Notes under the pieces: model-generated
The model's database searches: none
What the model saw: the letters and a program-made list of their open reading frames with translations, nothing else
Told to the model about the DNA's origin: nothing
Program-made: the position numbers and the translations under genes
Part shown: positions 6,302 to 41,959 of the stretch, piece after piece
How the letters are laid out: the number at the start of each line of letters is the position of its first letter
Position numbering within the stretch: position 1 is the stretch's first letter
NCBI GenBank assembly: GCA_003157015.1
Contig: PMIJ01000076.1
Location: 1 to 64,000 of the forward strand
Reading direction: 5' to 3'
Source: Bacteroidales bacterium
GTDB lineage: Bacteria; Bacteroidota; Bacteroidia; Bacteroidales; VadinHA17
Length of the DNA stretch: 64,000 nt

Positions 6302-6321
6302 ACTACGTCTCTTCCCCAAAT

Positions 6322-6386
6322 ATTTTACCCCCATCCCCCAAGGGGGGCTAAAATGCAATTACGGCTTTAAAAGTCCCCCTTGGGTT
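6322..6386. repeat. Short C/G-rich inverted-repeat element, right end truncated
   Basis: The left arm is complete (TTTTACCCCC, then core CCCCCAAGGGGGG and CTAAAAT). It is followed by 14 bases and a right arm that breaks off after CCCCCTTGGG. It begins 21 bases behind the stop codon of the lipoprotein. It belongs to the same family as the two DUF559-carrying elements at 30.8 and 40.8 kb. Confidence 0.8.
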
Positions 6387-6401
6387 CATCGCTTTCCCCA
6401 A

Positions 6402-6486
6402 TTTTTTACCCCCCATCCCCCCCAAAGGGGGGCTAAAATGCATTGAAGGATTTTTAAGTCCCCCTCGAGGGATTTAGGGGTGAAAA
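6402..6486. repeat. Short C/G-rich inverted-repeat element, complete
   Basis: Complete gene-less copy. The left arm begins TTTTTTACCCC and ends CTAAAAT; the right arm runs from TTTTTAAGTCCCC to GATTTAGGGGTGAAAAA. About 15 bases separate the arms. It is the second of two copies in tandem between convergent genes, where the hairpins could stop transcription from both sides. Confidence 0.8.
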
Positions 6487-6501
6487 ACTGAAATGGAGTG
6501 A

Positions 6502-16296: not shown

Positions 16297-16386
16297 TTTA
16301 CCTCTCCCTAAATCCCTCCCCCAAGAGGGAGGGACTTTTAACTTCTGACAAAATTGAAGCCCCCCTTGGGGGGTTTGGGGGTTAAT
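16297..16386. repeat. Short C/G-rich inverted-repeat element
   Basis: Gene-less copy of the DUF559-associated repeat family. The left arm is TTTACCTCTCCC then CCCTCCC...GGGAGGG and ACTTTTAA; the right arm is GCCCCCCTTGGGGGG then TTTGGGGGTTAATAA. This is one of the few copies upstream of genes, between the divergent regulator and the first array permease. Confidence 0.75.
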
Positions 16387-16430
16387 AATACATACAAAGG
16401 TATTTCATTCCAGTACCAAAGTCAATAAAC

Positions 16431-19000: not shown

Positions 19001-19013
19001 TTAATCCGCCTTT

Positions 19014-19146
19014 GTTTTACCCCTCTGACTCCCCCAGGGGGGAGAACCAAACAAAGGCTTAATAATTTTTGTACTGATGAATAAATAAAAGCAAATTTTA
19101 TCCAGGTCTTAAAGCCCCCCTTGGGGGGGTTGGGGGGGAAAAAGAG
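19014..19146. repeat. C/G-rich inverted-repeat element with longer centre
   Basis: The left arm TTTTACCCCTCTGACTCC...AGAACCAAA is the variant otherwise seen at the left end of the second DUF559 element (40.8 kb). The right arm is GTCTTAAAGCCCCCC...TTGGGGGGG. About 50 AT-rich bases lie between. The right-arm lead-in GTCTTAAA matches the 3' coding end of that DUF559 gene, which suggests an internally deleted copy. It starts 13 bases after the stop of member 1. Confidence 0.75.
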
Positions 19147-19187
19147 AAAAATGAAGAATTATTAAATAACAAAACAACACAAAAGAT

Positions 19188-23983: not shown

Positions 23984-24063
23984 TTTTTACCCCCATCCCC
24001 CCAAGGGGGGCTAAAATAATGCAGGATTTAAAAGTCCCCCTTGGGGGATTTAGGGGTAAAAAA
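23984..24063. repeat. Short C/G-rich inverted-repeat element, best-preserved copy
   Basis: Clear 80-base example: TTTTTACCCCC, a joint, core CCCCCAAGGGGGG, CTAAAAT; then ten bases; then TTTAAAAGTCCCCC, TTGGGGG, ATTTAGGGGTAAAAA. The outer 30-odd bases of the two ends are inverted copies, and each arm is itself a small hairpin. No target-site duplication can be recognised because the ends run into T and A tracts. Confidence 0.85.
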
Positions 24064-24143
24064 ATCAAAAAAGCAAAACATAAAGAACGAAAACCAAAAC
24101 AAGCAACAAGTAACTCTAAATTTAAAAATATAACTTGATTTAA

Positions 24144-29075: not shown

Positions 29076-29096
29076 TGAGGAGTGAGGAGTGAGGAG
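29076..29096. repeat. Heptamer tandem repeat TGAGGAG, three units
   Basis: Three perfect copies of TGAGGAG lie seven bases behind the stop of member 5, in the leader of the following lipoprotein gene. It is the third spacer of the array with a period of exactly seven. Confidence 0.8.
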
Positions 29097-29197
29097 TGAT
29101 GCGCTTGGCGTTAGGGAGGAACAGGAGAAAGGGAGAGGAGGAATTAGTATCAACGAGATACGTGAAGCAAGAAACGAAAAATAATAACCTTAATATA

Positions 29198-30727
29198 ATG
29201 AAGAATCTCACAAAACTGATATTCCTGCTTTTCTTTCTAATTCAAAATATTGCATGCAATCGTAATCGACTAAAGACCAACGAAAAAGAACTGGCAAAAG
29301 AAATAATTACCAGGGAAAAAGAAATAGATTCGGCAGATAAAGCTGCTAATGAAAAAAAGCTGACCGATACTCTGAATCGTCATCATGGAGGGTTCCGTCT
29401 TAAAGAAAACCGTTCAGTCGATCCTGCACATCTACCTTTAATAATTGATATTGCGGATAACTTGGACAATATAAAGGATATTAACTTGTCCGATGTTGCC
29501 TCAACAATTACTTATATCCGCATAGAACCTGTACCTGATCCCACTCTTCCTGTGGATCTGAAATTCAATTATTACCTTATGGATAAATATATAATTGCGC
29601 GGAATCTATATGGAATTCATTTGTTCTCAAGAGATGGAAGATACATACGGTCAGTCGTGAAAAACCAGTATACAGGGGTTAATGTAAAAGCAGGTTCCGT
29701 AATGTTTTTTACCCACTATACAATGAAAGGTGGTGGCATGTCAATATGGGCAGAAGGGAACAACCTGTTTTATAATTACAGAAATAACATTACCGGACAG
29801 AAATACATCATGGAGTATGATTGTTCCTCTACTCAACTAATACCAGACTCCAAATTTGATCCGGAAAAACCTGATCAGATATCAGGGCTGGGAAAGATTG
29901 CAGTAGATCTGAATCATGGAAAAACTGAACCTCCAAAACCCCGTTCGCAAAATGGAATGTTTGGAGGACCAGTTGAATTTTTATTCTCGGAAAGGAGCGA
30001 ATATATGCTTGACCAGCATTCATACGCTGTCCCCGTTTATGATAATAATATGATGGTAATTCTAAACAATAATGGTGATACTTTATCAACCTTTTCGATG
30101 TTGGAAAAACTGAAAAACTATACAAAAGAGTTGCATCGGGGCACTGATTATGGTATTCAGTATGAACATAATGGGAAATTATACTTCCGTCCTGAGTTTA
30201 ATGATACGGTTTTCCAGGTGATTCCACCAAACAGGTTGCTGCCGGTATATGTATTAAAACTTGGAAATTATAAAGTTTCTAAACAACTGGGAGTTGATCC
30301 TGACTTTAATCTTACAGGCAAAATCATTCCTGGGGAATGGGCTGAAACTAAAGACTATATATTCATGATATATACAAAAGACGATTATGATTGTCAGGTC
30401 ACCAGAAAGAAGAAAACAGTGAAGATCTATCATGCAATATATTCAAAGCTGAATCATCAGTTATCTGTTATCGAAAGTGACCCCTATGATTATACTCCTG
30501 AAATACTTAAAAACAATATCGATGGAGGATTGGCTGTCTGGCCATCTTCCTATATGATCGGTAATAATGGAGAAATGCTGATATCCTTAAAAGGTACAGA
30601 ACTGAAAAATCGGATTAATACGGAGCAGTTTAAAGTGTCAAAAGCTCCTGAAGCTAAAAAGAAAGAGCTGGAAAGAATGGCCCGGGCAGTTTCCAATAAT
30701 GAAGATATTTTGATGATAGTAAAATGA
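29198..30727 (+). CDS. Six-bladed beta-propeller lipoprotein (DUF5128-like)
   Basis: A 509-residue lipoprotein starting MKNLTKLIFLLFFLIQNIAC with the Cys as lipidation site. The ATG at 29198 is chosen because earlier in-frame starts only add a charged, non-conserved stretch. After a Lys/Glu-rich linker (about 22-65) comes IADNLDNIKDINLSDVASTI, followed by YIRIEPVPD and HLFSRDGRYIRSV, typical openings of the Bacteroidota propeller lipoproteins. Such proteins are usually single genes of unknown ligand. Here it is embedded between array members 5 and 6 on the same strand, so it may be a periplasmic partner of the permeases; that is inference. Confidence 0.8.
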   Translation: MKNLTKLIFLLFFLIQNIACNRNRLKTNEKELAKEIITREKEIDSADKAANEKKLTDTLNRHHGGFRLKENRSVDPAHLPLIIDIADNLDNIKDINLSDVASTITYIRIEPVPDPTLPVDLKFNYYLMDKYIIARNLYGIHLFSRDGRYIRSVVKNQYTGVNVKAGSVMFFTHYTMKGGGMSIWAEGNNLFYNYRNNITGQKYIMEYDCSSTQLIPDSKFDPEKPDQISGLGKIAVDLNHGKTEPPKPRSQNGMFGGPVEFLFSERSEYMLDQHSYAVPVYDNNMMVILNNNGDTLSTFSMLEKLKNYTKELHRGTDYGIQYEHNGKLYFRPEFNDTVFQVIPPNRLLPVYVLKLGNYKVSKQLGVDPDFNLTGKIIPGEWAETKDYIFMIYTKDDYDCQVTRKKKTVKIYHAIYSKLNHQLSVIESDPYDYTPEILKNNIDGGLAVWPSSYMIGNNGEMLISLKGTELKNRINTEQFKVSKAPEAKKKELERMARAVSNNEDILMIVK

Positions 30728-30765: not shown

Positions 30766-31230
30766 TTTTTCACCCCCCATCCCCCCAAGGGGGGGCTAAA
30801 ATATATTAGAAAGTTTAAATATGGAAGAATTAGACAAAACGATGTATTTCAAAGCGAAACCTGACATTTTGGAAGCAGCAAGGATTCTTCGTAAAAGCAT
30901 GACAATTCGAGAAAAGTTATTGTGGGATAAACTTAAAGAAAAGCAGATCTGTGGACTGCGTTTTCGCAGACAACATCCAATTGAGTTTTTTATTGCTGAT
31001 TTTTATTGCCATCAAATAAGATTAGTCGTTGAAATCGATGGAGAAATTCACAATCAACAGGAAGAATATGATGATGGAAGATCAGCTGAAATGGAAAAGT
31101 TTGATATTAAAATTATCCGGTTTAAGAATTGGGAGGTTGAAAATGATATTGAAAATGTAATTATAAAAATAAAAAATATTGTTAATGAACTTCTTAAAAG
31201 CCCCCCCTTGGGGGGGTTGGGGGGTAAAAA
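30766..31230 (+). mobile_element. DUF559-carrying inverted-repeat element, copy A
   Basis: The left arm (TTTTTCACCCC, core CCCCCCAAGGGGGGG, CTAAAAT) lies just before the DUF559 start codon. The right arm (TTCTTAAAAGCCCCCCC, TTGGGGGGG, TTGGGGGGTAAAAA) overlaps its 3' end. The arms are inverted copies of each other and of the ends of the gene-less elements in the window. The 465-base unit is therefore a candidate autonomous form, with the nuclease as its mobility or maintenance protein. It begins 38 bases behind the lipoprotein stop and ends 37 bases before array member 6. Confidence 0.7.
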
Positions 31231-31240
31231 CCAAGGGTAG
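30821..31240 (+). CDS. DUF559-family endonuclease-like protein inside element A
   Basis: A 139-residue protein of the DUF559 family, whose fold belongs to the PD-(D/E)XK group and is related to Vsr and restriction endonucleases. Visible motifs are LRFRRQHPI, the acidic residue in FIADFYC, the ExD pair in LVVEIDGEIHNQQ, and DDGRSAEMEK. The N-terminal helix MTIREKLLWDKLKEKQ is typical. The last residues SPPLGGLGGKNQG are encoded by the right inverted repeat of the element, so the gene end and the element end coincide. About 70 percent of residues match copy B at 40.9 kb by eye. No methylase or mismatch-repair gene is near, which argues against a Vsr role. Confidence 0.85.
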   Translation: MEELDKTMYFKAKPDILEAARILRKSMTIREKLLWDKLKEKQICGLRFRRQHPIEFFIADFYCHQIRLVVEIDGEIHNQQEEYDDGRSAEMEKFDIKIIRFKNWEVENDIENVIIKIKNIVNELLKSPPLGGLGGKNQG

Positions 31241-31267
31241 TAAAACGAAATTAATCTCATTTCCGAT

Positions 31268-33667
31268 ATGACCAACTTTATCAAAATTTCTCTAAGAAAC
31301 CTCACAAGAAAACCGATTTATTCGATCATCACATTCACAGGTTTTACTTTCAGCATTGCGGCAAGCTTACTTATTTATCTCTGGGTGTATAATGAACTGA
31401 GCTACGAAAAGTTCCATCCCGATTATCAGCGCATATACCGGGTGCTTACACTGTCAAAGGAGGGTGACAAAATTCTAAAATCTCCGATGTGTTACCGCCC
31501 GGTACCCAAAACCATGAAGATGGATTATCCTCAGATCGAATTTGCCACTTATATTAGTTACGACTCGGAAGATTCTCCCCTGCATCTTGAATCAGGAGGT
31601 GAAAAAATTGAAGCGAGAAGATGCTGGACAAACGGTGACTTTTTTAAAATTTTCGGAGGCTTCAGATTTATGGAAGGTTCATCTAAAAGCGCCCTTGATA
31701 AACCTGATAATATAATACTCTCAGAAAAAACCGCAAAAAAACTGTTTGGAAATCAACCAGCAATTGGGAAGGTACTTATCAGTGATAAATTTTCCAAAGA
31801 AGTTTATACTGTTGGTGGAGTAATACGTATTCCTGAGAATAGCCACATCGATTTCGGATATATGCTCTCTGAAACGAACAGCCAGCTTCTTGATTACTCA
31901 AATAACTGGGGAGACAAAGGGTTTGTACGAGTATATATTAAACTTGCGAAAGATGCACATATTGATGATCGGTTTCTCTCTGCAATATCAAATTATTTAA
32001 GCAGGTACTCGAAAATCACCGACAAACTTATGTTCCAGCCTCTGGCGGATATCCATCTCTATTCAGATTATCAAAATGACTATTACGATAAACACCCGGG
32101 TAGTTACAAGTATGTCTGGATATTTTCAGGGCTTGCTTTACTAATTGTTCTTATGGCATCCATTAATTTCTCAGCTCTTTCAGTTGCCAGGGCATCGGAG
32201 CGTTCGGTTGAAATTGGTATTAGGAAAGTAACAGGGGGAAGCAAAATCAGCATCTTCCGCCAGTTTCTTACAGAATCTGTTTTTCAGACTTTCGCAGCCA
32301 CCATTATTGCCCTCTTTGTTGTCTGGTTCATCCTGCCATGGTTTAATACGCTTTCCTCCCAGAAGTTGACTTTTAATATCTCCACGGGATTAGTCATCAA
32401 CCTTTTCATACTGACCTTGCTGGTAGGTATTATTGCCGGTTTATATCCTTCTATTTACCTTTCTTCGTTTAATCCCATTGGAATTTTCAGAGGTGGTTCT
32501 ATCTCCGGATCAAAGAGCAATTTTATCAGAGTACTCGTTACTGTTCAGTTTACGATAGCTGTCTTTTTTATTATCGCAACATCAATTTTTATTAAACAGA
32601 TGAATTATATTCATAACAAAGACCTTGGTATTGACGATAAGAACGTAATTGTTATTCCAACAGGTTTATGGTATGACAATAAAGATTTTAAACAGGAACT
32701 ATTAAGAAATCCAAGGGTTCTGAGTGTTTCTGCCAGCACCTTTGCACCCATTGACGTTGGTTTTAACGGAGGCTTGTCTTTAAGCCACCAGGGCCGTACT
32801 GATACGCTACAGGTTAATTATTATTTTGTAGATGAAGATTTTGCAAATACCTATAAACTGGATGTAATTAAAGGTCAATTCCTGCAAATGGATTACTCGG
32901 GCTATTGGAAAGAAGGTGAAAAACTGGGTAAGAGCAGGAAAGAGGGAAAAGAATATACTGTGTCTATGCCGATAGTTATTAATCAAACAGCAGAAAAGCT
33001 TCTTGGATTCGATGATCCGATAGGACAGCGGATAGGTGATAATGTAATTGTTGGTGTAGTGAAAGACTTTCATTTCAGATCACTTCATTTTCCTATAGAA
33101 CCGCTGGTTATGTCAAATAATCCTGAAGCAATTGGAACAATGAATGTACGTATTGCACCCGGAAATACAACTGAAACACTTAATTACATCCGCGATACTT
33201 ACAGGAAACACAGGGAAGACAGGGAATTCTCTTACACCTTCTTTGATAACCTTCTGAATGAAAAATACCAGGCAGAGACCCGGTTGAAAAATATCACTGT
33301 TGCATTTGCATTATTGGCAATAGTAATTTCTATCCTGGGAATTCTGGGAATGGCAGTCTTTTCTATCAATCGCCGGACAAAAGAGATTGGTATCCGCAGG
33401 GTTGCAGGTGCAAAAAGCTCGGAAATACTTATTCTGCTTAATAAGGAATTCATAATCTGGGTTCTGGTTGCTTTTATAATTGCCACACCTGTAGCCTGGT
33501 ATATAATGAATATATGGCTGCGGAATTTTGTTTACAAAACAAAACTCAGCTGGTGGATATTCTTGCTTTCAGGAATGATAACTTTTGGAATTGCTTTAAT
33601 AACAGTGAACTGGCAAAGCTGGAGGGCAGCAACGAGGAACCCGGTGGAAGCTCTCCGATACGAATAG
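31268..33667 (+). CDS. FtsX/MacB-type permease, array member 6
   Basis: A 799-residue double permease with both coupling segments intact (ERSVEIGIRKVTGGSKISIFRQ and RRTKEIGIRRVAGAKSSEIL). Helix 1 is IYSIITFTGFTFSIAASLLI. The second periplasmic domain has a charged insert, YWKEGEKLGKSRKEGKEYTV. Its last codons GTGGAAGCTCTCCGATACGAATAG, and the 31 bases after the stop, match member 2 very closely, a sign of gene conversion. Forty bases later an orphan set of codons for VEALRYE-stop follows, so the 3' flank is a recombination product. It follows element A directly. Confidence 0.9.
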   Translation: MTNFIKISLRNLTRKPIYSIITFTGFTFSIAASLLIYLWVYNELSYEKFHPDYQRIYRVLTLSKEGDKILKSPMCYRPVPKTMKMDYPQIEFATYISYDSEDSPLHLESGGEKIEARRCWTNGDFFKIFGGFRFMEGSSKSALDKPDNIILSEKTAKKLFGNQPAIGKVLISDKFSKEVYTVGGVIRIPENSHIDFGYMLSETNSQLLDYSNNWGDKGFVRVYIKLAKDAHIDDRFLSAISNYLSRYSKITDKLMFQPLADIHLYSDYQNDYYDKHPGSYKYVWIFSGLALLIVLMASINFSALSVARASERSVEIGIRKVTGGSKISIFRQFLTESVFQTFAATIIALFVVWFILPWFNTLSSQKLTFNISTGLVINLFILTLLVGIIAGLYPSIYLSSFNPIGIFRGGSISGSKSNFIRVLVTVQFTIAVFFIIATSIFIKQMNYIHNKDLGIDDKNVIVIPTGLWYDNKDFKQELLRNPRVLSVSASTFAPIDVGFNGGLSLSHQGRTDTLQVNYYFVDEDFANTYKLDVIKGQFLQMDYSGYWKEGEKLGKSRKEGKEYTVSMPIVINQTAEKLLGFDDPIGQRIGDNVIVGVVKDFHFRSLHFPIEPLVMSNNPEAIGTMNVRIAPGNTTETLNYIRDTYRKHREDREFSYTFFDNLLNEKYQAETRLKNITVAFALLAIVISILGILGMAVFSINRRTKEIGIRRVAGAKSSEILILLNKEFIIWVLVAFIIATPVAWYIMNIWLRNFVYKTKLSWWIFLLSGMITFGIALITVNWQSWRAATRNPVEALRYE

Positions 33668-33698
33668 TGAGGAGAGCGAAGACACTGACCGAAGAGTC
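33668..33698. repeat. 3'-flank repeat shared with array member 2
   Basis: Second copy of the 31-base segment found after member 2, with one mismatch. In this copy CACTGAC and GTCAGTG (which extends just past the segment) form a perfect 7-bp stem around CGAAGA, which could act as a weak hairpin. Confidence 0.8.
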
Positions 33699-33701
33699 AG
33701 T

Positions 33702-33725
33702 GTGGAGGCGCTGAGATATGAATAA
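33702..33725 (+). pseudogene. Orphan 3' end of a lost array member (VEALRYE-stop)
   Basis: GTGGAGGCGCTGAGATATGAATAA encodes the array signature VEALRYE followed by a stop, 34 bases behind the real stop of member 6. It continues without a break into ACTACCCCCTAAATCC, the same junction that follows members 7 and (with small changes) 8. The body of the gene is gone; the 3' tip with its attached repeat element remains. Confidence 0.7.
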
Positions 33726-33800
33726 ACTACCCCCTAAATCCCCCAAATGGGGGACTTTATAAACGTGATAGCCCCCCTTGGGGGGTTTGGGGGTAAGAAA
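33726..33800. repeat. Short C/G-rich inverted-repeat element
   Basis: Gene-less copy with core CCCCCAAATGGGGG in the left arm and GCCCCCCTTGGGGGG in the right, about 18 bases apart. It starts immediately after the orphan VEALRYE stop, the same junction as behind member 7. Confidence 0.8.
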
Positions 33801-33851
33801 ACAAAGGAAGTTAGAAGTTTTTGGAACGAAAATTAAAATATTGGTAAAAAA

Positions 33852-33893
33852 ACGTCTTAAATACCCCCTTGGGGGGATTTAGGGGTAAAAAAA
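33852..33893. repeat. Solitary right arm of a DUF559-type element
   Basis: ACGTCTTAAATACCCCC, TTGGGGGG, ATTTAGGGGTAAAAA has no left arm nearby. Its lead-in ACGTCTTAAA is the same as the 3' coding end of DUF559 copy B (CAACGTCTTAAAAG), so this looks like the remnant of a gene-bearing element. The rest of the 33726-33953 spacer is AT-rich with a G-run and shows nothing else. Confidence 0.65.
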
Positions 33894-33953
33894 GGGGGGG
33901 GAGAAAAGAAAAATATGGAACTGAATCATTAAATATCATATTATATCATATTC

Positions 33954-36377
33954 ATGAAGATTATCAGAAGGTTAAAACAGAATTGGCAATGGTTTTTGAT
34001 TAATGCTGTTGGACTGAGTTCTGCATTTTCCTGTGTACTTATCATTTTTATCTATACCAGCCAACAATTGAGTTACGATAAATTCCATTCAAAATCAGGC
34101 AGGATTTACCGTATGACAGTTGATACAAATCGCGGTGCTATTTCCATTCACCCGGCAAGAGTATACGGAGATACTCAAAAATTGTTGTCAAAATATCCGG
34201 CTATTGAAAACATGGTTAGAATTGTGCCTTTTAGAAATGCAATTGTCAAAATTGGGGAACAAAAGTTTTACTCCAGAAACGCCTATTCAACAGATAGCTC
34301 ATTCTTTAAAATCTTTGATTTCAAAATATTGGCAGGGAGCCCTGAAAATGCTTTTTCGCAACCGGGAAGAGCTTTTATTTGTCGCAGCCTTGCTTTGACA
34401 TATTTTGGAAGTATTGATGTTGCAGGCAGGAAGATAACCATTTTGCATCAGCAGGACAACGATCCAAAGGTTTATACCATCGATGGTGTAATGGAAGATT
34501 TCCCGAGAAATTCGCACTTTCATGCCGAACTATTAACTTCTTTTACCAGTGATAATGACCGTACGACATGGGCCTATACATACTTATTAATAAAAAAAGG
34601 TGCAGACGTTGATGCTCTCAGAAGTACAATTCAACATAATTGGGAAACTGAAAATAAATCAAATGATTCCATACCTATTTTGTACCTTCAAAAGCTTACC
34701 GATATTCATCTGTTCAGCCAGAAAACACGTGAAATGGAGAAGAACGGTGACATCCGTTCAATTATCCTTCTTGTGAGTTGTACCGTTCTAATTCTATTCA
34801 TAGCCCTTATTAATTACCTTAATCTGAGCCGCGTACAATTAATCGCCAGAATGAAATCAGTGAGAATAAAATTAATAAACGGAGCGTCGAAGTGGACTGT
34901 GGGATGGGAAATTATTCAAGAATCATTACTCCTTTCTGTTTTTTCAATTTTAATAGGATTTTTTATTGCTGACTGGCTGGGAGAATCTCTGAAGATTTCT
35001 GTATTACAGTCCGGCAGGATCTTTGGAATTGGTATAATTTGCACAGGGTTTATTGTTTCCATTGCTCTTCTGGCTGTGTTCCCCCTTTACTCTTCAAAAA
35101 TCATATATGACATTAAAATGACAGGTAAACAGGAGAGTCTGTATTCTTTTCCTCTTGTCATGCAATTTACACTGGCTATAGTGGCAATAGCAAGTACACT
35201 GGTATTAAACCGGCAAATTGATTTTATAAATAGCAAACATCCTGCTGCGCAAAATGCAAACATGGTAGTCATTGCCGACAATCCATGGCAATCAGTGCAA
35301 CGTTATGATTTAATTAAAACTGAATTGCTTAAGAATTCTTCGATAGCCAACGTAACGGCAGCAATGGAAGATCCTGGTAGTGATATTTTAGACGCCGTAG
35401 GCTTCGAGATGGAGGGTGTCGCGAAAAAAGAAGGGCAATCAATAAATATCTTCACTACTGATTCCAATTTCTTTAGATCACTTGGAATTCATCCACTTGC
35501 CGGAACTACTGAGCTGGGCTTTACTCCGTCTCAGCAGTGGGAATCTGATGCAGTTGATTTAAGCAATCTCCGGCAAAGCCAAAATGCCGACAAACAAAAG
35601 TTGGCAGAGTTGGAACGGAAAGTAGGGAATTACCGCGAAAAATATATACTTAATCAAAGTGCGTTAAAACTGCTTGGAATAAATAAACCCGATGATGCCA
35701 TCGGAAAGCGTTTCAGGCTTAATTTCTTTTTGCCTGATCTTTTCCCGGAAGGTGAAATTGTAGGAGTGGTCCCCGATTTCCATTATACTGACCTGCATAG
35801 CCCAGAAAAACCTCTGGCCATAGCTCCCCGGAAATTGTTCAACTACTGTTTTATAATAAGCATCAATCCTCTTCAAAGAAGAGAAGCCTTAAACACGATT
35901 GGTTCAACCTGGCAAAAAATAAATCCTGAATTCCCGTTTCAATACGAATACATAACCGACAGCTATCGAAAAGTATATGCAGGAGAGTACGCACAAACCC
36001 GTGCGCTATCGTTATTCGCACTCATCTCTATAATTCTCTCCTCCCTCGGAATCTTTGCTATGGCAGCTTTCAGCATGCAACATCGTGTTAAGGAAATTGG
36101 TATCAGGAAAATTAATGGTGCCATGATATCTGAAATATTAACAATGCTGAATAAAAGCTTTGTCAGCTGGATCGCTATTGCATTCATTATCGCAACTCCC
36201 ATTTCATGGATTGCCATGCATAAATGGCTTGAAAATTTTGCTTACAAGACTGAACTTAGCTGGTGGATATTTGCTTTGGCCGGATTACTGGCATTGGGTA
36301 TAGCCTTATTAACAGTTAGTTGGATAAGCTGGAGAGCAGCAACAAGGAATCCTGTCGAAGCTCTCAGATACGAATAA
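33954..36377 (+). CDS. FtsX/MacB-type permease, array member 7
   Basis: An 807-residue double permease. The N-terminal cytosolic leader is short (MKIIRRLKQNWQWFL) before helix 1. The first coupling segment IARMKSVRIKLINGASKWTV is degenerate; the second, HRVKEIGIRKINGAMISEIL, is intact. The second periplasmic domain contains a predicted short coiled coil not seen in the other members (LRQSQNADKQKLAELERK and following), which could mediate a partner contact. C-terminus ELSWWIF to NPVEALRYE, with an unusual SWISWRAATR. The stop codon abuts a repeat element. Confidence 0.9.
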   Translation: MKIIRRLKQNWQWFLINAVGLSSAFSCVLIIFIYTSQQLSYDKFHSKSGRIYRMTVDTNRGAISIHPARVYGDTQKLLSKYPAIENMVRIVPFRNAIVKIGEQKFYSRNAYSTDSSFFKIFDFKILAGSPENAFSQPGRAFICRSLALTYFGSIDVAGRKITILHQQDNDPKVYTIDGVMEDFPRNSHFHAELLTSFTSDNDRTTWAYTYLLIKKGADVDALRSTIQHNWETENKSNDSIPILYLQKLTDIHLFSQKTREMEKNGDIRSIILLVSCTVLILFIALINYLNLSRVQLIARMKSVRIKLINGASKWTVGWEIIQESLLLSVFSILIGFFIADWLGESLKISVLQSGRIFGIGIICTGFIVSIALLAVFPLYSSKIIYDIKMTGKQESLYSFPLVMQFTLAIVAIASTLVLNRQIDFINSKHPAAQNANMVVIADNPWQSVQRYDLIKTELLKNSSIANVTAAMEDPGSDILDAVGFEMEGVAKKEGQSINIFTTDSNFFRSLGIHPLAGTTELGFTPSQQWESDAVDLSNLRQSQNADKQKLAELERKVGNYREKYILNQSALKLLGINKPDDAIGKRFRLNFFLPDLFPEGEIVGVVPDFHYTDLHSPEKPLAIAPRKLFNYCFIISINPLQRREALNTIGSTWQKINPEFPFQYEYITDSYRKVYAGEYAQTRALSLFALISIILSSLGIFAMAAFSMQHRVKEIGIRKINGAMISEILTMLNKSFVSWIAIAFIIATPISWIAMHKWLENFAYKTELSWWIFALAGLLALGIALLTVSWISWRAATRNPVEALRYE

Positions 36378-36484
36378 ACTACCCCCTAAATCCCCCATTT
36401 GGGGGACTTTAGAATATGGTTCGCCCCCCATTTGGTGGACTTTATAACACTTTAGCCCCCCATTTGGGGGGTTGGGGGGTAGAA
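36378..36484. repeat. C/G-rich inverted-repeat element with three hairpin arms
   Basis: Three palindromic cores follow one another: CCCCCATTTGGGGG, CCCCCCATTTGGTGG and CCCCCCATTTGGGGGG, with the family's outer ends at both sides. It looks like two overlapping copies or a partial duplication. It begins at the base after the stop of member 7. The remaining 110 bases before member 8 are AT-rich and carry no recognised signal. Confidence 0.75.
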
Positions 36485-36598
36485 AGCTGAGGGAATGAGG
36501 GGTTGAAAACTCTGGGGATTAATTGGTGAAAAACCTGATGTTTTTGCAGCCATTTAAATCAATTATTAATATCTTCAATCTCCATATAATCCTGATAT

Positions 36599-39016
36599 AT
36601 GTTCAGACACAATCTTACCTTAGCCCTGAGAAATCAGTTAAAAAGTAAATTTTTCTCAATAATTAATGTGCTTGGGCTTGCAATCGGAATTTCGGTCTCA
36701 ATTCTTATAATAAATTACGTAAGTTTTGAGTTCAGCTTCGACAATATGCACAGTAAACGGGATCGTATTTACCGTGTTGAAAGTCGTTTCTATGAGGGGA
36801 ATATCCTGACAGATGACTGGGCAACAAGTACATTTGGTTATGGCAGCGCTATAAGCCGGGAAATGACCGGTGTTGAAAATTATGTACGTATTGGTGTTCA
36901 GAATTCTGAACAGACTGTCTCTTACAAAGAGATCCGAAGCCGTGAAAATGGAATCGCTTACACTGGTCCTTCATTTTTCTCTGTTTTTGATTTTAAACTG
37001 AAAGAAGGAGCCATCAACGACCAACTGGTAAGACCAAACACAGTTGTTATTTCTGAAGACATTGCTATTCGCTTTTTTAAAGATGAGAATCCCATTGGCA
37101 AAGTTTTAACTTTCGCTACGGGAACCACTTTTTATAATTGTGAGGTAATAGGTATTATAAGAAATTTCCCGAAAAACTCTCACATCCGTTTCAATTATCT
37201 GATATCATATGAGACACTTCCGGTCTGGATGAAGGAATTCTGGTACCTTCATGAAGCTTATACTTATCTCCTGCTGGCACCTGGAAAGAATCCGAAAGAA
37301 ATTGAATCACAGTTTCCTGCTATGGCCGAAAAATACAAGACTATGAACGCTCTTAAAAATAAAACATGGGCAGTCACTCTTGTACCACTGAAGGAAATAC
37401 ATCTTAACCCTCAAAAACAGTATGAGAGAGAAATAAAGGGAAATAAAAATTCGCTGATCACTTTGATTTTTATCGCTGTCATCATTCTGCTGACTGCCTG
37501 GATCAACTATATAAATCTTACTACTGCAAGGTCGATGGAAAGGGCGAAGGATATTGGAATTAGAAAAGTATCAGGTGCTTTCAGACATCAGCTGATAGGG
37601 CAGTTCTTACTGGAATCGTGGATTGTAAATCTGTTTTCAATTTTCCTGGCTACTATTCTTATACTTCTGTTAAAACCGGTTTTTAACCAGATAATCCACG
37701 AAAATATTGACCTGGTTATTCTTAACCAGCCGGTATTCTGGATCTCTACAATAATAATATTGATCGGAGGAATTCTGCTTTCGGGCTTTTATCCGGCCTT
37801 TATTATGTCGCGTATTAAACCTGTATCAATCCTGAAGGGGAACTATTACAATTTCGGTTCAGCCGGTACGACCCGTCGTATACTTGTGATTTTTCAGTTT
37901 GCAGCGTCTCTCTTCCTCATCTGCGGTATGTTTATTGTTTATAAACAATTGAAATATATGCAACAACAGGATCTTGGAGTCAACATTAATCAGACTATCG
38001 TTATAAAATTTCCAGTAAGCAGACAGGATCTGAATCAACGTGTCACTATGCTTGCTGAAAACCTGAAAGAGGAACCAGGTATTAGTTCTGTGACCATTGC
38101 CGGGGCGGTTCCCGGTATGGAAGTGGCGTTTTTTGCATCAAACAGTTTACAGGGCAGTGGTCAGGATAAACAACGTCTTTATGAAATGCTTTCTGTCGAT
38201 GAAGATTACATAAAAACTTTTGGTTTGAGTTTGCTGGCCGGAAGACCATTTCAGAAAGGATTTGGGAATGAAAGGGGAAGTCTCATAGTTAACGAGGCAG
38301 CAATGTTGTATTTAGGGTTGAATAATCCTGAGACAGCTATTGGCAATAAAGTAATGCTGGAAGGAGAACGGGAACCTGTAACAATAATCGGTGTTTTGAA
38401 AAACTGGCATCAACGCGGTCTGGGCAATGCATACACGCCTGTTATGCTGCTGAAAAACGGACGATTAAGCTGGGTTCCTCCACGATTTATAGCTATTAAA
38501 ACAGCTGATAATAAATATAATAAAACACTGGATGTTATTCACAAACAATGGAGTACCTATTTCCCGGATGCCAGTTTTGACTATTTTTTCCTCGATAGTT
38601 ATTTTGACAGCCAGTATAAATCCGACAGGCTTTTTGGAAAAATTGTCAGTATTTTTACCGGACTCGCATTTTTTATCTCTGTACTTGGATTATGGGGATT
38701 AGCCTCTTTCACTGCTTCAAAAAAAGTAAAAGATGTAGGGGTAAGAAAGATATTCGGAGCACGGATAGGAAACATTGTTTATCAGTTTTCAAAAGAGATA
38801 GTTGTACTTATTCTTATTGCACTTCTGATTGCGACTCCTATCTCAATCCTTATAATGAAGAACTGGTTGCTTAATTATGCTTTCAGGATTGCAATTCCGT
38901 ACTGGATTTACCTGGCCGGAGGTATTATTACTATATCAATTGCAATGATTACAGTGAGCCTGCAAAGCTGGAAAACTGCAGTCAGAAATCCGGTGGAAGC
39001 GCTCAGATATGAATAA
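36599..39016 (+). CDS. FtsX/MacB-type permease, array member 8
   Basis: The last array member, 805 residues, and the most diverged. Both coupling segments are present (ERAKDIGIRKVSGAFRHQL and KKVKDVGVRKIFGARIGNIV). The final helix region lacks the SWWIF block of the other seven and reads AIPYWIYLAGGIITISIAMI. The end, SLQSWKTAVRNPVEALRYE, still carries the array signature. Helix 1 is FFSIINVLGLAIGISVSILI. It may be the oldest or least converted copy. The stop codon overlaps the first base of a repeat element. Confidence 0.9.
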   Translation: MFRHNLTLALRNQLKSKFFSIINVLGLAIGISVSILIINYVSFEFSFDNMHSKRDRIYRVESRFYEGNILTDDWATSTFGYGSAISREMTGVENYVRIGVQNSEQTVSYKEIRSRENGIAYTGPSFFSVFDFKLKEGAINDQLVRPNTVVISEDIAIRFFKDENPIGKVLTFATGTTFYNCEVIGIIRNFPKNSHIRFNYLISYETLPVWMKEFWYLHEAYTYLLLAPGKNPKEIESQFPAMAEKYKTMNALKNKTWAVTLVPLKEIHLNPQKQYEREIKGNKNSLITLIFIAVIILLTAWINYINLTTARSMERAKDIGIRKVSGAFRHQLIGQFLLESWIVNLFSIFLATILILLLKPVFNQIIHENIDLVILNQPVFWISTIIILIGGILLSGFYPAFIMSRIKPVSILKGNYYNFGSAGTTRRILVIFQFAASLFLICGMFIVYKQLKYMQQQDLGVNINQTIVIKFPVSRQDLNQRVTMLAENLKEEPGISSVTIAGAVPGMEVAFFASNSLQGSGQDKQRLYEMLSVDEDYIKTFGLSLLAGRPFQKGFGNERGSLIVNEAAMLYLGLNNPETAIGNKVMLEGEREPVTIIGVLKNWHQRGLGNAYTPVMLLKNGRLSWVPPRFIAIKTADNKYNKTLDVIHKQWSTYFPDASFDYFFLDSYFDSQYKSDRLFGKIVSIFTGLAFFISVLGLWGLASFTASKKVKDVGVRKIFGARIGNIVYQFSKEIVVLILIALLIATPISILIMKNWLLNYAFRIAIPYWIYLAGGIITISIAMITVSLQSWKTAVRNPVEALRYE

Positions 39017-39150
39017 TTTACCCCCTAAATCCCCCATATGGGACCGACTGTTAAGAAATTGCCCTGTGGGCAATTTTAAGGAGGTGCCAGACTGTAGGGG
39101 TGGCGAAAGATGCCTCTTTAGCCCCCCTGGGGGTGGTTGGGGGGGTCAAA
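39016..39150. repeat. C/G-rich inverted-repeat element with an extra internal hairpin
   Basis: The outer arms (ATTTACCCCCTAAATCCCCC and GCCCCCCTGGGGGTGG) belong to the same family. The centre is different: it holds a 9-bp perfect stem, AAATTGCCC-TGT-GGGCAATTT (39056-39076), followed by GGAGGTGCCAGACTGTAGGG. The centre may be a second repeat inserted in the first. The rest of the 39017-39302 gap is AT-rich; no promoter is clear. Confidence 0.65.
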
Positions 39151-39302
39151 AAGCGAGGGGAATTGGTGGTGAAATATAAACAGATACCCTGAAATTTAAT
39201 GCAGCATATAACTCAAATTAACGTCTTTATTAAGTTTATTAAATGAAACCTTCCTCAATCTGATCTTTGCCAATGTTTATTACTAACTTATCTGCCAATC
39301 TC

Positions 39303-40787
39303 ATGAAAACCAGAATTTCTATTCTCACTGTACTGTTTCTTGTTTCCATAACTGTTTCTGCACAAGACGGATACACAATGAAAAAAGACTCTGTTCAGTC
39401 AGATGTTCTTAAGCAAAACCGTAAGATAAGCATCTATCTACCTGAAGGATATGATGCCAAAGATGCAAAATTCCCTGTACTTTATGTTCTCGATGCGGAC
39501 GGACGTGATCAACATACTGTCCCTACTGCCCGATTCCTGTCTGTAAATAACAAAATGCCTAAAGCTATTGTAATCGGAGTTTTCAATATAGACAGAAATC
39601 ATGATTTTCTTCCTGATTCGAGTCAGGCTGCAATTACCGGTGGAGGGGCAGACAATTTTGTACAATTCTTTAAAAAAGAGCTTATTCCTTATATTAATAA
39701 AAATTTTAAAACTGAACCGTTTAATGTATTGATTGGTCATTCATATGGAGGTGTATTTGTAATGCATGCGCTTCTGAATGATCCTGATCTCTTCGATGCA
39801 TATATTGCCATCGATCCCAGTTTCTGGTATAAGAACCAGATGCAGGTTAAAAGCGCCCAGAATGAATTTCTTAAATCCAAAAACTGGAATAAGCCAATTT
39901 ATATTTCAGGTCGCGACGGAGGCGGTATGAAAGATATGGGAATTACATCAATGGAAAAACTTCTTAAAAGCTCTGCTCCAAAAGAGCTGAAATGGAAAGT
40001 AGTTGCATATTCCAACGAAGATCATGGTTCTATACCGTTTAAGAGTGTGTACGATGGTCTGCGTTATATATTTGATTCAGGCGGCAATTTCTCAGTTTAT
40101 CCGATGGCAGGCATTTTACCTAAAGGTACCAGTTCATATGCATTTGTTCAAAATTTAAATCCGAATCTCCATTATACAATTGATGGCACTGAACCTACTA
40201 TTAATTCTCCGCTTTGTAAAAACATGATTAAAATAAATAAAGCCTGTACTTTAAAGGTTAAAAGTGTCTCATCCAATTATAAAAATATCCCAAGTGTTGC
40301 AAGGGTTTTCTCAGAAGGTGATTATATGAACGGACAACAATCAGTTGAAAATCTTAAACCTGGTCTTAAATTTTCTTATTATGAAGGAGTATGGGATTCG
40401 GTTCCTGACTTTTCAAAGCTTATTCCTAAAAAGATTGGTACCACTGAGAAACTCGATTTAAGTTTTGCCCTCAAGAATGACAGTTTTGGCGTAAAGTTTG
40501 AAGGATACCTGCATATCACAAAAAAGGATTTGTATGATCTCTGGATCGTAAGCGATGATGGCTCAAAAGTTTACCTGAATAATACGTTATTATTTGATAA
40601 TGACGGGTTGCATGCAGCAGATAATCCCGTTGTTAAACTTGTTCCGCTTAACCCGGGTTACTACCCGATAAGGATAGATTATTTTCAGAAGACTGGCGAT
40701 AAATCTGTTACACTGGGCTCTGTAAATGGGAAAAAGCATGTTCAGGCACTGCCATTACCGAAAGAGATGTTGTTCTATAAAGAATAA
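39303..40787 (+). CDS. Secreted esterase with CHB_HEX and PA14-like C-terminal domains
   Basis: A 494-residue protein starting MKTRISILTVLFLVSITVSA, a signal peptide; upstream starts are less likely. Residues about 25-265 form an alpha/beta-hydrolase of the enterochelin-esterase-like family, with nucleophile Ser in LIGHSYGGVF, an acidic residue in YIAIDPSF and His in EDHGSIPF. Then comes YTIDGTEPTINSPLC, typical of the CHB_HEX_C_1 domain, and from about 345 a PA14-like domain (FEGYLHITKKDLYDLWIVSD, DGSKVYLNN). A carbohydrate-linked ester or siderophore substrate fits this architecture but is not proven. It is probably monocistronic. Confidence 0.85.
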   Translation: MKTRISILTVLFLVSITVSAQDGYTMKKDSVQSDVLKQNRKISIYLPEGYDAKDAKFPVLYVLDADGRDQHTVPTARFLSVNNKMPKAIVIGVFNIDRNHDFLPDSSQAAITGGGADNFVQFFKKELIPYINKNFKTEPFNVLIGHSYGGVFVMHALLNDPDLFDAYIAIDPSFWYKNQMQVKSAQNEFLKSKNWNKPIYISGRDGGGMKDMGITSMEKLLKSSAPKELKWKVVAYSNEDHGSIPFKSVYDGLRYIFDSGGNFSVYPMAGILPKGTSSYAFVQNLNPNLHYTIDGTEPTINSPLCKNMIKINKACTLKVKSVSSNYKNIPSVARVFSEGDYMNGQQSVENLKPGLKFSYYEGVWDSVPDFSKLIPKKIGTTEKLDLSFALKNDSFGVKFEGYLHITKKDLYDLWIVSDDGSKVYLNNTLLFDNDGLHAADNPVVKLVPLNPGYYPIRIDYFQKTGDKSVTLGSVNGKKHVQALPLPKEMLFYKE

Positions 40788-40804
40788 TCAACCCCTGACT
40801 CACC

Positions 40805-41272
40805 TTTTTTTACCCCTCTTACTCCCCCAAGGGGGAGAACCAAAAAAAGGCTTGACATTTGAATATGAAAGAATTGGACAAAACGATGTATTATAGAGCA
40901 ACCCCTGAAATAATAAACAATGCCAGTATGTTACGTGAAAACATGACTGCCAGTGAGAAATTATTATGGGAAAGACTTAAAGGCAAACAAATATGCGGAA
41001 TTAGATTTCGCAGACGACATCCTATATTTATTTTTATAGCTGATTTTTATTGTCATGAAGCAAGATTAGTTGTTGAGATAGATGGAGAAATTCATAATCA
41101 ACAAATAGAATACGATGATGGAAGATCAGCTGAAATGGAAAAGTTTTTTATAAAAATTATTAGGTTTATTAATTATGAAGTTGAAAATGAAATTGATGAG
41201 GTTATAGAAAGTATAACAAACGCAGTTAATCAACGTCTTAAAAGTCCCCCTTGGAGGATTGAGGGGTAAAAT
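40805..41272 (+). mobile_element. DUF559-carrying inverted-repeat element, copy B
   Basis: The left arm (TTTTTTTACCCC, TCTTACTCCCCCAAGGGGG, AGAACCAAA) is the variant also seen at 19.0 kb. The right arm (CGTCTTAAAAGTCCCCC, TTGGAGGATTGAGGGGTAAAAT) overlaps the gene's stop codon. It begins 17 bases behind the esterase stop, and its last base precedes the ATG of the Nudix gene, so the insertion supplies that gene's leader. Same size and gene orientation relative to the arms as copy A. Confidence 0.7.
40865..41269 (+). CDS. DUF559-family endonuclease-like protein inside element B
   Basis: A 134-residue protein. The ATG at 40865 is used because it aligns with the start of copy A (MKELDKTMYY versus MEELDKTMYF); an in-frame TTG lies six bases earlier. 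The conserved motifs are IRFRRRHPI, FIADFYC, LVVEIDGEIHNQQ and YDDGRSAEMEK, so the PD-(D/E)XK catalytic residues seem intact. The C-terminus SPPWRIEG is encoded by the right repeat, which has drifted compared with copy A. Substitutions versus copy A are spread over the protein while the motifs are kept, which suggests selection for activity and a long separation of the two copies. Confidence 0.83.
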   Translation: MKELDKTMYYRATPEIINNASMLRENMTASEKLLWERLKGKQICGIRFRRRHPIFIFIADFYCHEARLVVEIDGEIHNQQIEYDDGRSAEMEKFFIKIIRFINYEVENEIDEVIESITNAVNQRLKSPPWRIEG

Positions 41273-41959
41273 ATGGAGGAGAATGAAAATAATGGGATTT
41301 GGAATAAGAAATTGAGAATGGATGATTTCGGATTAAGGTTAAAGAAAGAGCTTTTGAAAGGTCTGCCCGGGACTGAAATTCAGTGGCAGATGGCATCATC
41401 GGACCGCTTCATAAAAAATTTTCCAAAGTCACCGGGAAAGGACTCCCGCGAAGCGGCTGTCCTGATACTCCTTTACCCCTATAAGCAGTCAATTTATACA
41501 GTATTTATGCAACGGCCTGATTATAATGGCGTTCATAGCGGCCAGATCAGTTTTCCCGGGGGGAAAAAAGAGCCTGAAGACGAAGATTTAATTCAAACAG
41601 CTCTTCGCGAAGCCTTTGAAGAAACCGGCGTAAATCCTGCCAAAACAGAGATCATCGGCAGGCTTACACCATTGTTTATTCCTGTTAGTAATACAATAGT
41701 GTATCCGGTTATAGGCTGGACAGATGAAAAACCCATTTTTAATCAAAAGTCGGAAGAAGTATTGTTTCTTATTGATGCTGATCTTAAGAGATTTCTTGAT
41801 GCTTCAATCGTAAAAACGAAACCAGTTGAGATAAGAGGCGAAATGCTTGGAGTTAAATATTTTGACTATGAAGAGAATACAATCTGGGGTGCTACTGCCA
41901 TGATTATCAATGAATTGCTGGTTATAATCAGAAGGGGTGGGTTTTTTCTTCCTGAATGA
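41273..41959 (+). CDS. Nudix hydrolase, CoA-pyrophosphatase-like
   Basis: A 228-residue Nudix protein. The Nudix box is GGKKEPEDED...REAFEETGV with the metal-binding REXXEE pattern. It is preceded by QRPDYNGVHSGQISFPGG, matching the extra motif of the CoA diphosphatase (NudL/UPF0035) group. It probably hydrolyses CoA or related nucleotide pyrophosphates in the cytoplasm. The ATG directly abuts the right end of element B. Its 3' end overlaps the convergent transglycosylase gene by 32 bases. Confidence 0.88.
   Translation: MEENENNGIWNKKLRMDDFGLRLKKELLKGLPGTEIQWQMASSDRFIKNFPKSPGKDSREAAVLILLYPYKQSIYTVFMQRPDYNGVHSGQISFPGGKKEPEDEDLIQTALREAFEETGVNPAKTEIIGRLTPLFIPVSNTIVYPVIGWTDEKPIFNQKSEEVLFLIDADLKRFLDASIVKTKPVEIRGEMLGVKYFDYEENTIWGATAMIINELLVIIRRGGFFLPE

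Follow-up and report, generated by a model that had tools for sequence, protein, structure and literature searches.

The closest described systems to the elements reported here are built on palindromic repeats. In the REPtron, as presented in the available part of the source (PMC3733652), the gene of a REP-associated tyrosine transposase (RAYT, or TnpA-REP) stands with inverted repetitive extragenic palindromes (REPs), and copies are both intergenic and intragenic. Rickettsia palindromic elements (RPEs) and CGTC REPs are further palindromic repeats (PMC3733652 and PMC10969869, each available in part); the accessible text of the former says that CGTC REPs lack a dedicated transposase, an open question there, and gives them a stem of 8-9 bp with A-T pairs at its foot, a loop of 4-5 nt and a CCA tail. 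Among nucleases, I-Bth0305I is the type member of the EDxHD family (accessible part of PMC3943268). Many bacterial genomes carry palindromic repeats without a known mover. We analysed a stretch of 64,000 nt from a Bacteroidales bacterium (contig PMIJ01000076.1; the whole stretch is called the window), in which two genes of the nuclease family DUF559 lie between inverted C/G palindromes, or arms. The likely reading is that a mobile-element family is represented in the window by two members with the gene and about seven without it, and that its DUF559 nuclease acts on the palindromes. A broad class of palindromic repeats is here tied to DUF559 by flanks, copy number, co-descent and the existence of copies with and without the gene. 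A literature search, with subscription journals mostly outside its coverage, found no description of DUF559 together with inverted repeats, palindromes or miniature inverted-repeat transposable elements (MITEs); by their titles, papers that name DUF559 deal with other subjects.

DUF559 genes packed between inverted arms

Both open reading frames (ORFs) match the Pfam profile PF04480 (DUF559; E 7.7e-33 for gene 1 and 4.1e-31 for gene 2), and each is bracketed by inverted C/G palindrome arms:

30766..30801, + strand: left arm of DUF559 element 1 (C-run tail and C/G palindrome); arm score with the right arm 23.5, displaced controls 9-10 (locus L002)
30821..31240, + strand: DUF559 nuclease gene 1, 139 aa, PF04480; last ~13 codons in and just past the right arm
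31199..31230, - strand: right arm of element 1, 84% complementary to the left arm (repeat I2)
40807..40840, + strand: left arm of DUF559 element 2; arm score 18, displaced controls 10-11 (locus L006)
40865..41269, + strand: DUF559 nuclease gene 2, 134 aa, PF04480 (E 4.1e-31)
41240..41270, - strand: right arm of element 2, overlapping the stop codon

The packing is tight: the left arm lies 20-25 nt upstream of the start codon and the right arm overlaps the final codons. The original prediction had the right arm itself encode both C-termini; their codons (SPPLGGLGGKNQG in gene 1, SPPWRIEG in gene 2) lie within that arm or just past it. It had also proposed one gene orientation relative to the arms, which holds for the two window copies; elsewhere both polarities occur.

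By pattern scan the window has 16 arms, eight on either strand, whereas 50 mononucleotide shuffles averaged 0.0. By eye there are ~7 gene-less arm pairs, counting divergent copies that the pattern misses, in agreement with the predicted two genes within inverted arms and at least seven gene-less elements. Most of the gaps between genes at 19 to 41 kb hold arms, and location between two arms is for this reason weak evidence by itself; the traits that distinguish the window elements are their tight packing and the match of each arm to the other arm of its own pair.

Paired arms at DUF559 genes of other genomes

For the arm score, the 300 nt on either side of the DUF559 domain were compared with each other and the best inverted match was taken; the threshold was 16. 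From the source genome, its genus and its order 97 loci were used (37 supplied and 60 picked, mostly longer matches); no score was taken for the edge loci L021, L078 and L097, and the N-run artefact L079 does not enter the overall tallies. The phylum sample consisted of the 30 best-scoring loci and the GTDB contig sample of the best 80 of 573 confirmed matches to three query sequences (L148, L149 and L152), all of them copies embedded in other proteins; on viral contigs five of nine DUF559 loci were tested. The phylum and GTDB samples are non-random and biased towards embedded copies. Near-duplicates, such as L152 and L185, which represent one locus, were collapsed in a separate count of 193 loci.

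Paired inverted arms scoring at least 16 were found at 141 of 207 DUF559 loci (130 of 193 without near-duplicates), and 3 of 743 displaced control windows reached this score. Thus most of the tested DUF559 genes have flanking arms, a frequency that the original prediction had proposed to determine. By set, the threshold was reached at 61/83 loci in the genus, 5/9 in the order, 14/30 in the phylum, 56/80 on GTDB contigs and 5/5 on viral contigs. For genus and order together (the L079 artefact counted) 68 of 94 loci reached the threshold, and none of the 345 control windows displaced inside those loci did so; for GTDB and viral loci the count was 61 of 85, against 2 of 298 displaced windows and none of 425 shuffles. 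The source genome (5.2 Mb, 238 contigs) has eight DUF559 matches, seven with paired arms at this score, of differing subtypes. Among genes for other enzymes of the genus, the score was reached by 1 of 28 for GIY-YIG nucleases and by 6 of 20 for RAYT, the RAYT palindromes differing in sequence. As labelled in the records, taxa with paired arms among the GTDB and viral loci include Chloroflexi, Alpha-, Beta- and Gammaproteobacteria, Geobacter-like bacteria, Nitrospirae, Brocadiaceae, Gracilibacteria, Caldisericia and Bacillota. Three DUF559 matches were found in phage records.

Gene and arms as one unit

When flanks were compared within a genome, the left flank was matched best by the right flank of the same gene at 49 of 71 loci, with 16.0 expected. 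Arm similarity tracks DUF559 identity over 62 elements (r 0.73, with a maximum of 0.12 in 2000 permutations; between genomes r 0.72), as computed after removing 19 pairs with homologous outer flanks. Three within-genome duplicates share the unit and nothing else: L015/L038 (85% over 548 nt), L018/L044 (87% over 594 nt) and L003/L004 (96.5% over 570 nt). The similarity of the first pair stops at the arms; the other pairs extend into an outer MITE described below, and L003 leaves its contig on the left. Taken together, these comparisons demonstrate, as far as sequences can, that gene and arms descend as one unit.

One could suppose that DUF559 is an ordinary small gene lying by chance among terminator-like intergenic palindromes, and the window region is indeed dense in arms. 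The displaced windows (3/743), the shuffles and the GIY-YIG genes (1/28) contradict chance packing, as does the preference for the cognate arm (49/71 versus 16), and we regard this explanation as hardly credible.

Copy numbers follow the same association. Window-type arms occur in 28 of 29 DUF559-bearing genus genomes (fragments at E<=1e-3 included) versus 2 of 7 DUF559-free ones (p 3e-4), and across the genus the number of arms correlates with that of DUF559 (Spearman 0.69) and not with that of RAYT (0.07). The original prediction had named gene-less arms in genomes free of DUF559 as an argument for coincidence; five of the seven such genomes of the genus have no window-type arms, while G004 (9 arms) and G006 (50 arms) carry them. 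Among 345 phylum genomes, CCCTCTCC hairpins are present in 71 of 147 with DUF559 (E<=1e-15) versus 21 of 198 others (p 7e-15), and 694 of 804 such hairpins fall in DUF559-bearing genomes. The association survives permutation within families (71 versus a mean of 57.4, p 2e-4).

The DUF559 enzyme

The DUF559 profile matches the structures 3hrl, an endonuclease-like protein of N. gonorrhoeae (E 1.7e-33), and 3r3p, a mobile intron protein (8e-7) that is the catalytic domain of the homing endonuclease I-Bth0305I. The same two structures are the top Foldseek hits (1.8e-8 and 1.3e-3) of an AlphaFold model (predicted local distance difference test, pLDDT, 81.8). Four residues, E71, D73, H77 and D84, are invariant in 35 DUF559 sequences; in our reading they would be the four residues of the EDxHD motif. 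The predicted fold is that of the EDxHD homing endonuclease I-Bth0305I (Vsr/I-Bth0305I). In place of Vsr, named in the original prediction, the nearest characterised relative is I-Bth0305I. The ratio of nonsynonymous to synonymous substitutions (dN/dS) was 0.07-0.22 in 14 of 15 hand-chosen DUF559 pairs, the fifteenth having saturated dS, and 0.18 for gene 1 against the copy in the related genome G035. By this estimate the DUF559 gene is under purifying selection.

In-frame insertion inside other proteins

In 46 of 212 loci (L037 and L079 doubtful) the DUF559 frame runs far past the domain, and in 21 of the 25 extended frames submitted to Pfam an additional domain was found. DUF559 precedes the editing domain in a LeuRS (L151) and lies between HSDR_N and the SNF2 ATPase in HsdR proteins of Bacteroidota and Brocadiaceae genomes (L156, L251); in a further HsdR (L183) its position differs. 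Other in-frame hosts are MetH (L181), MmeI, HsdS, type ISP and other methylases, PriA, MetRS, Mfd (UvrB_inter and TRCF domains), a DEAH-type helicase and an EPSP-synthase/Nudix frame. Upstream of RimM DUF559 is in frame as well, the fusion being uncertain. More than ten unrelated host genes contain embedded DUF559.

The MetH linker was surveyed in one genus, where 37 of 41 genomes gave a match (7 of these not fetched); in 30 stretches the unit was present in 6 and absent from 22, with 2 unread. The arms of the MetH insert translate as PPAPEGG and APPSGAGGAG, and the right arm is entered by the reading frame for at least 12 nt in 73 of 137 elements. The arms are often stop-free, and therefore insertions in frame into host-protein linkers can survive. 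Around embedded copies Pfam listed no intein domain (one scan at E<=1e-3, the others at E<=1e-8; introns were not searched), and the reading frame of the host protein runs on across the insert. Such in-frame embedding accounts for a large part of the phenomenon.

Filled, empty and gene-less sites

A comparison of relatives for presence and absence, which had been suggested as a check, revealed empty orthologous gaps. The gap of element 1, between the genes at 29096-30727 and 31268-33667, is 543 nt in the window and 80, 16, 15 and 14 nt, without arms, in four relatives (G032, G029, G001 and G013, respectively). In G020 it is 117 nt with one G-run, and in G035 it holds a DUF559 copy with a stop codon. 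At the gap of element 2, between the genes at 39267-40787 and 41273-41959, G006 retains the two arms together with the beginning and the end of the coding sequence but lacks the part between. Since both ends of the gene remain, this gene-less copy is a derivative. The same gap holds in G005 another DUF559 type than in G000, and has no arms in G018.

The ~0.73-kb unit of Sinorhizobium C101 is missing at that place in Shinella, which has a DUF559 gene at another location (H21). Polymorphic insertions were sought among near-identical Azospirillum and Sinorhizobium replicons; the Azospirillum gene was present in 7 of 7 well-covered replicons, and the only site without the unit was that of the related Shinella. 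The Sinorhizobium records are chromosome-sized. Several records labelled as plasmids, among them CP090106.1 (Sinorhizobium, 3.7 Mb) and NZ_CP119142.1 (N. gonorrhoeae, 2.2 Mb), have chromosomal lengths.

In type B, the gene-less MITE copies L350 (G019) and L347 (G012) have a single palindrome, CCCCTCC-loop-GGAGGGG, and L007, L008 (both G000) and L044 (G012) have two palindromes around 464, 377 and 533 nt with DUF559 or its remnant; the flanks of these three are homologous on both sides to gene-less MITE copies. This comparison is one of repeat copies, not of orthologous sites, and is compatible with both entry and loss of the gene. In the pair L350/L007 the loop marks the second palindrome as a reverse-complement copy of the first; the pairs L350/L052 and L348/L018 fit the one- versus two-palindrome pattern less completely. 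The aligned loci thus show that sites without the unit exist, and that gene-less copies, as reconstructed from them, include an internal deletion and one-palindrome versions. Mobility of the DUF559-arm unit is well supported. The predicted relation of an autonomous element to its deletion derivatives is borne out by these gene-less relatives; mobilisation by the nuclease, the other half of that proposal, is inferred.

The same sites bear on homing without transposition, in which older palindromes spread otherwise, DUF559 cuts a palindrome and is copied into it, and the gene-less palindromes are its targets. Such a course would suit the fold shared with the homing endonuclease I-Bth0305I, the single palindrome of gene-less MITE copies against the two that flank the gene, the different DUF559 types in one intergenic gap of G000 and G005, and the MetH linker occupied in six species of one genus. 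However, the second palindrome of L350/L007 is inverted and not a direct duplicate, the G006 copy with its two gene ends is a derivative, arms are mostly missing where DUF559 is missing, and the inserts occur in many unrelated genes. We consider homing of this kind unlikely, and prefer a mobile element with DUF559 acting on its arms.

Outer MITEs, RAYT genes and other neighbouring repeats

A second repeat family encloses some DUF559 copies. Its ends are CATAGCCGTCAACTTAAG and its gene-less copies are ~127-163 bp long:

L094-L097, L007, L008, L018, L044 and L347-L353, in genomes G020, G000, G012 and G019: loci of the CATAGCCGTCAACTTAAG repeat family

In places this MITE has inserted into C/G palindromes. 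By eye, two copies have target duplications of 9-10 bp (L095, CCCCAAGGGG; L348, GATTTAGGG); no transposase of the family's own was found. RAYT genes are present in 30 of 36 genus genomes. Some of them (among L108-L127) have REP palindromes of their own, e.g. CCGTTGGCTTCAGCCAACGG, so that two enzyme-palindrome pairings coexist in these genomes.

These neighbours raise the possibility that the palindromes are moved by another enzyme, be it RAYT, a DDE transposase belonging to the outer MITE or a recombinase of the host, with DUF559 as a profiting cargo. The type-B copies within CATAGCCGTCAACTTAAG MITEs, two of which show the target duplications just mentioned, and the wide presence of RAYT genes would agree with it. 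Yet RAYT was rejected as the mover, as its number does not follow that of arms (rho 0.07) and its genes carry other palindromes, and the outer MITE surrounds some copies only. Another regular companion gene of the arms may exist, the survey having started from DUF559 loci. On balance a passenger role appears distinctly improbable to us, and we retain DUF559 as the candidate mover.

In Sinorhizobium (L301, L302) DUF559 lies between inverted two-hairpin units, ~130 nt each in L301. The hairpin units are also matched in other Rhizobiaceae records (H140-H151), by a query that contained ISRm16 as well. The flanks may be RIME repeats. One of the Sinorhizobium hairpins has CGTC beside it, on the opposite strand.

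Arm structure and remaining units of the window

The mean perfect stem of 137 arms is 8.3 bp versus 4.0 in shuffles. Among 128 arms with a stem of at least 6 bp there are 77 distinct stems; the palindrome is therefore kept while its sequence changes. A tail repeating a stem strand is weakly above chance (4.6 versus 4.1 of 6). In DNA folding, three C-run arms of the window were no better than shuffles (z -0.3 to 0.4), whereas shuffles were surpassed by three arms from other subtypes (z -2.0 to -3.6); the view of arms as hairpins is weak for the window's C-run arms and better for the other three. Rfam gave nothing at E<=0.1 for four loci with arms.

Besides the two gene-bearing elements the window contains the following units:

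6318..6400, no strand assigned: gene-less unit; left arm 6328-6347, internal CTAAAA..TTAAAAG, right arm partial (repeats D7, D8)
6402..6490, no strand assigned: gene-less unit in tandem with the unit at 6318..6400 (repeats D5, D7, D8)
16345..16388, - strand: solitary right arm (repeat comparison and pattern scan)
19012..19150, no strand assigned: gene-less unit; left end 88% identical over 56 nt to the left end of element 2 (repeat D9)
23984..24069, no strand assigned: gene-less unit (repeat I23 and pattern scan)
33726..33803, no strand assigned: gene-less unit (repeat comparison and pattern scan)
33849..33896, - strand: solitary right arm (repeat comparison and pattern scan)
36378..36485, no strand assigned: gene-less unit (repeat D6 and pattern scan)
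39015..39152, no strand assigned: gene-less unit, left arm degenerate (repeats D6, I4 and pattern scan)

Eight tandem paralogous ORFs of 774-818 codons, by eye FtsX/MacB-like permeases, occupy 16676-39016. C/G arms lie in most gaps among them, and repeats D1/D2 are the 3′ ends of these paralogues.

Discussion

Fold, selection and association lead us to infer that DUF559 is the mover. A member of the family consists of two inverted arms, each a palindrome with a stem of 8 bp on average and often with an adjoining C- or G-run. DUF559 would nick or cut its cognate palindromes as a hairpin or cruciform, and repair of the break by copying or joining the arm-bounded segment would spread gene-bearing copies. 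Gene-less arms might spread in trans or arise by arm-to-arm deletion, and insertions in frame into protein linkers could survive because the arms often lack a stop codon. DUF559 is probably the engine of a hitherto unrecognised tiny mobile element, present in many phyla and including in-frame insertion. We see an even chance that a class of palindromic repeats found bacterium-wide, in-frame protein repeats included, has its missing enzymes in the DUF559 (EDxHD) nucleases. Such elements would have a nuclease of homing-endonuclease type as their only protein, would transpose by hairpin or cruciform ends and would depend on neither DDE, HUH nor tyrosine/serine recombinase enzymes.

Several observations weigh against this interpretation. 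It rests on sequence analysis, and any unit moved as a whole would show joint descent of gene and arms, whatever enzyme moved it. About a third of DUF559 loci (66/207) score below 16 and have no matching pair, among them one copy of the source genome (L001, 12.0). Azospirillum DUF559 has C/G repeats on one side only and no matching inverted pair, the flanks of the N. gonorrhoeae gene are direct, not inverted, repeats, and a matching inverted pair is absent at E. coli YcjD, a DUF559 protein. The G006 assembly, 81% complete, has its 50 arms without a DUF559 gene. The CCCTCTCC hairpin pattern was picked after the arms had been seen; 21 genomes without DUF559 at threshold have such hairpins (G145 has 32), and 76 DUF559-bearing phylum genomes have none. 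A comparison of direct repeats at the outer edges of 136 elements gave no target-site duplication signal (mean longest match 4.85 versus 4.67 in crossed pairs), with three 9-nt direct matches at element edges versus ~0.3 expected. Finally, the outer MITE that encloses several type-B copies is a possible mover of them. The genes without matching arms (Azospirillum, E. coli YcjD, N. gonorrhoeae) may be resident copies.

To the right of E. coli ycjD (L336), and on that side only, lies a degenerate C/G palindrome that may be left over from an earlier element.

If the nuclease is the mover, DUF559 and its arms would make a new class of mobile elements and would answer what the role of many DUF559 genes is. 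Because the unit enters host proteins in frame (LeuRS, MetRS, MetH, PriA, Mfd, HsdR and others), it would also be a source of new protein segments.

Comparison with known systems

Like a REPtron, the DUF559 element has a small enzyme gene between inverted palindromes and many gene-less copies in the genome, and its copies too lie both between and within genes. It differs in that DUF559 is not an HUH (Y1) tyrosine transposase (Pfam lists DUF559 only, and the fold is that of 3hrl and 3r3p), in that its arms have no regular GTAG tag at the hairpin foot (by eye, not counted), and in that RAYT genes of the same genus have other palindromes. By analogy, the DUF559 element may work like a REPtron in which an unrelated enzyme of homing-endonuclease type replaces the HUH transposase. 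With the EDxHD homing endonuclease I-Bth0305I it shares the fold of the catalytic domain and the behaviour of a mobile gene; unlike that enzyme it has no listed intein, a continuous host frame, very many sites, arms and gene-less copies. As to a single conserved insertion site, the MetH linker is reused in one genus, yet there are more than ten unrelated hosts.

RPEs are likewise palindromic inserts in frame in unrelated proteins, but, as far as the accessible descriptions go, an RPE is gene-less and ~150 bp long, whereas the DUF559 unit has a gene, with gene-less relatives beside it. Identity with CGTC REPs was rejected: the stem, loop and tail in the available part of their description do not fit the DUF559 arms by eye. 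Terminal inverted repeats and an internal-deletion derivative recall MITEs and their autonomous transposons, but the DUF559 unit has neither a DDE transposase nor a target-site duplication signal. Judged by these comparisons, DUF559-arm elements appear to be a new kind, standing between REPtron, homing endonuclease and RPE and matching none of them fully.

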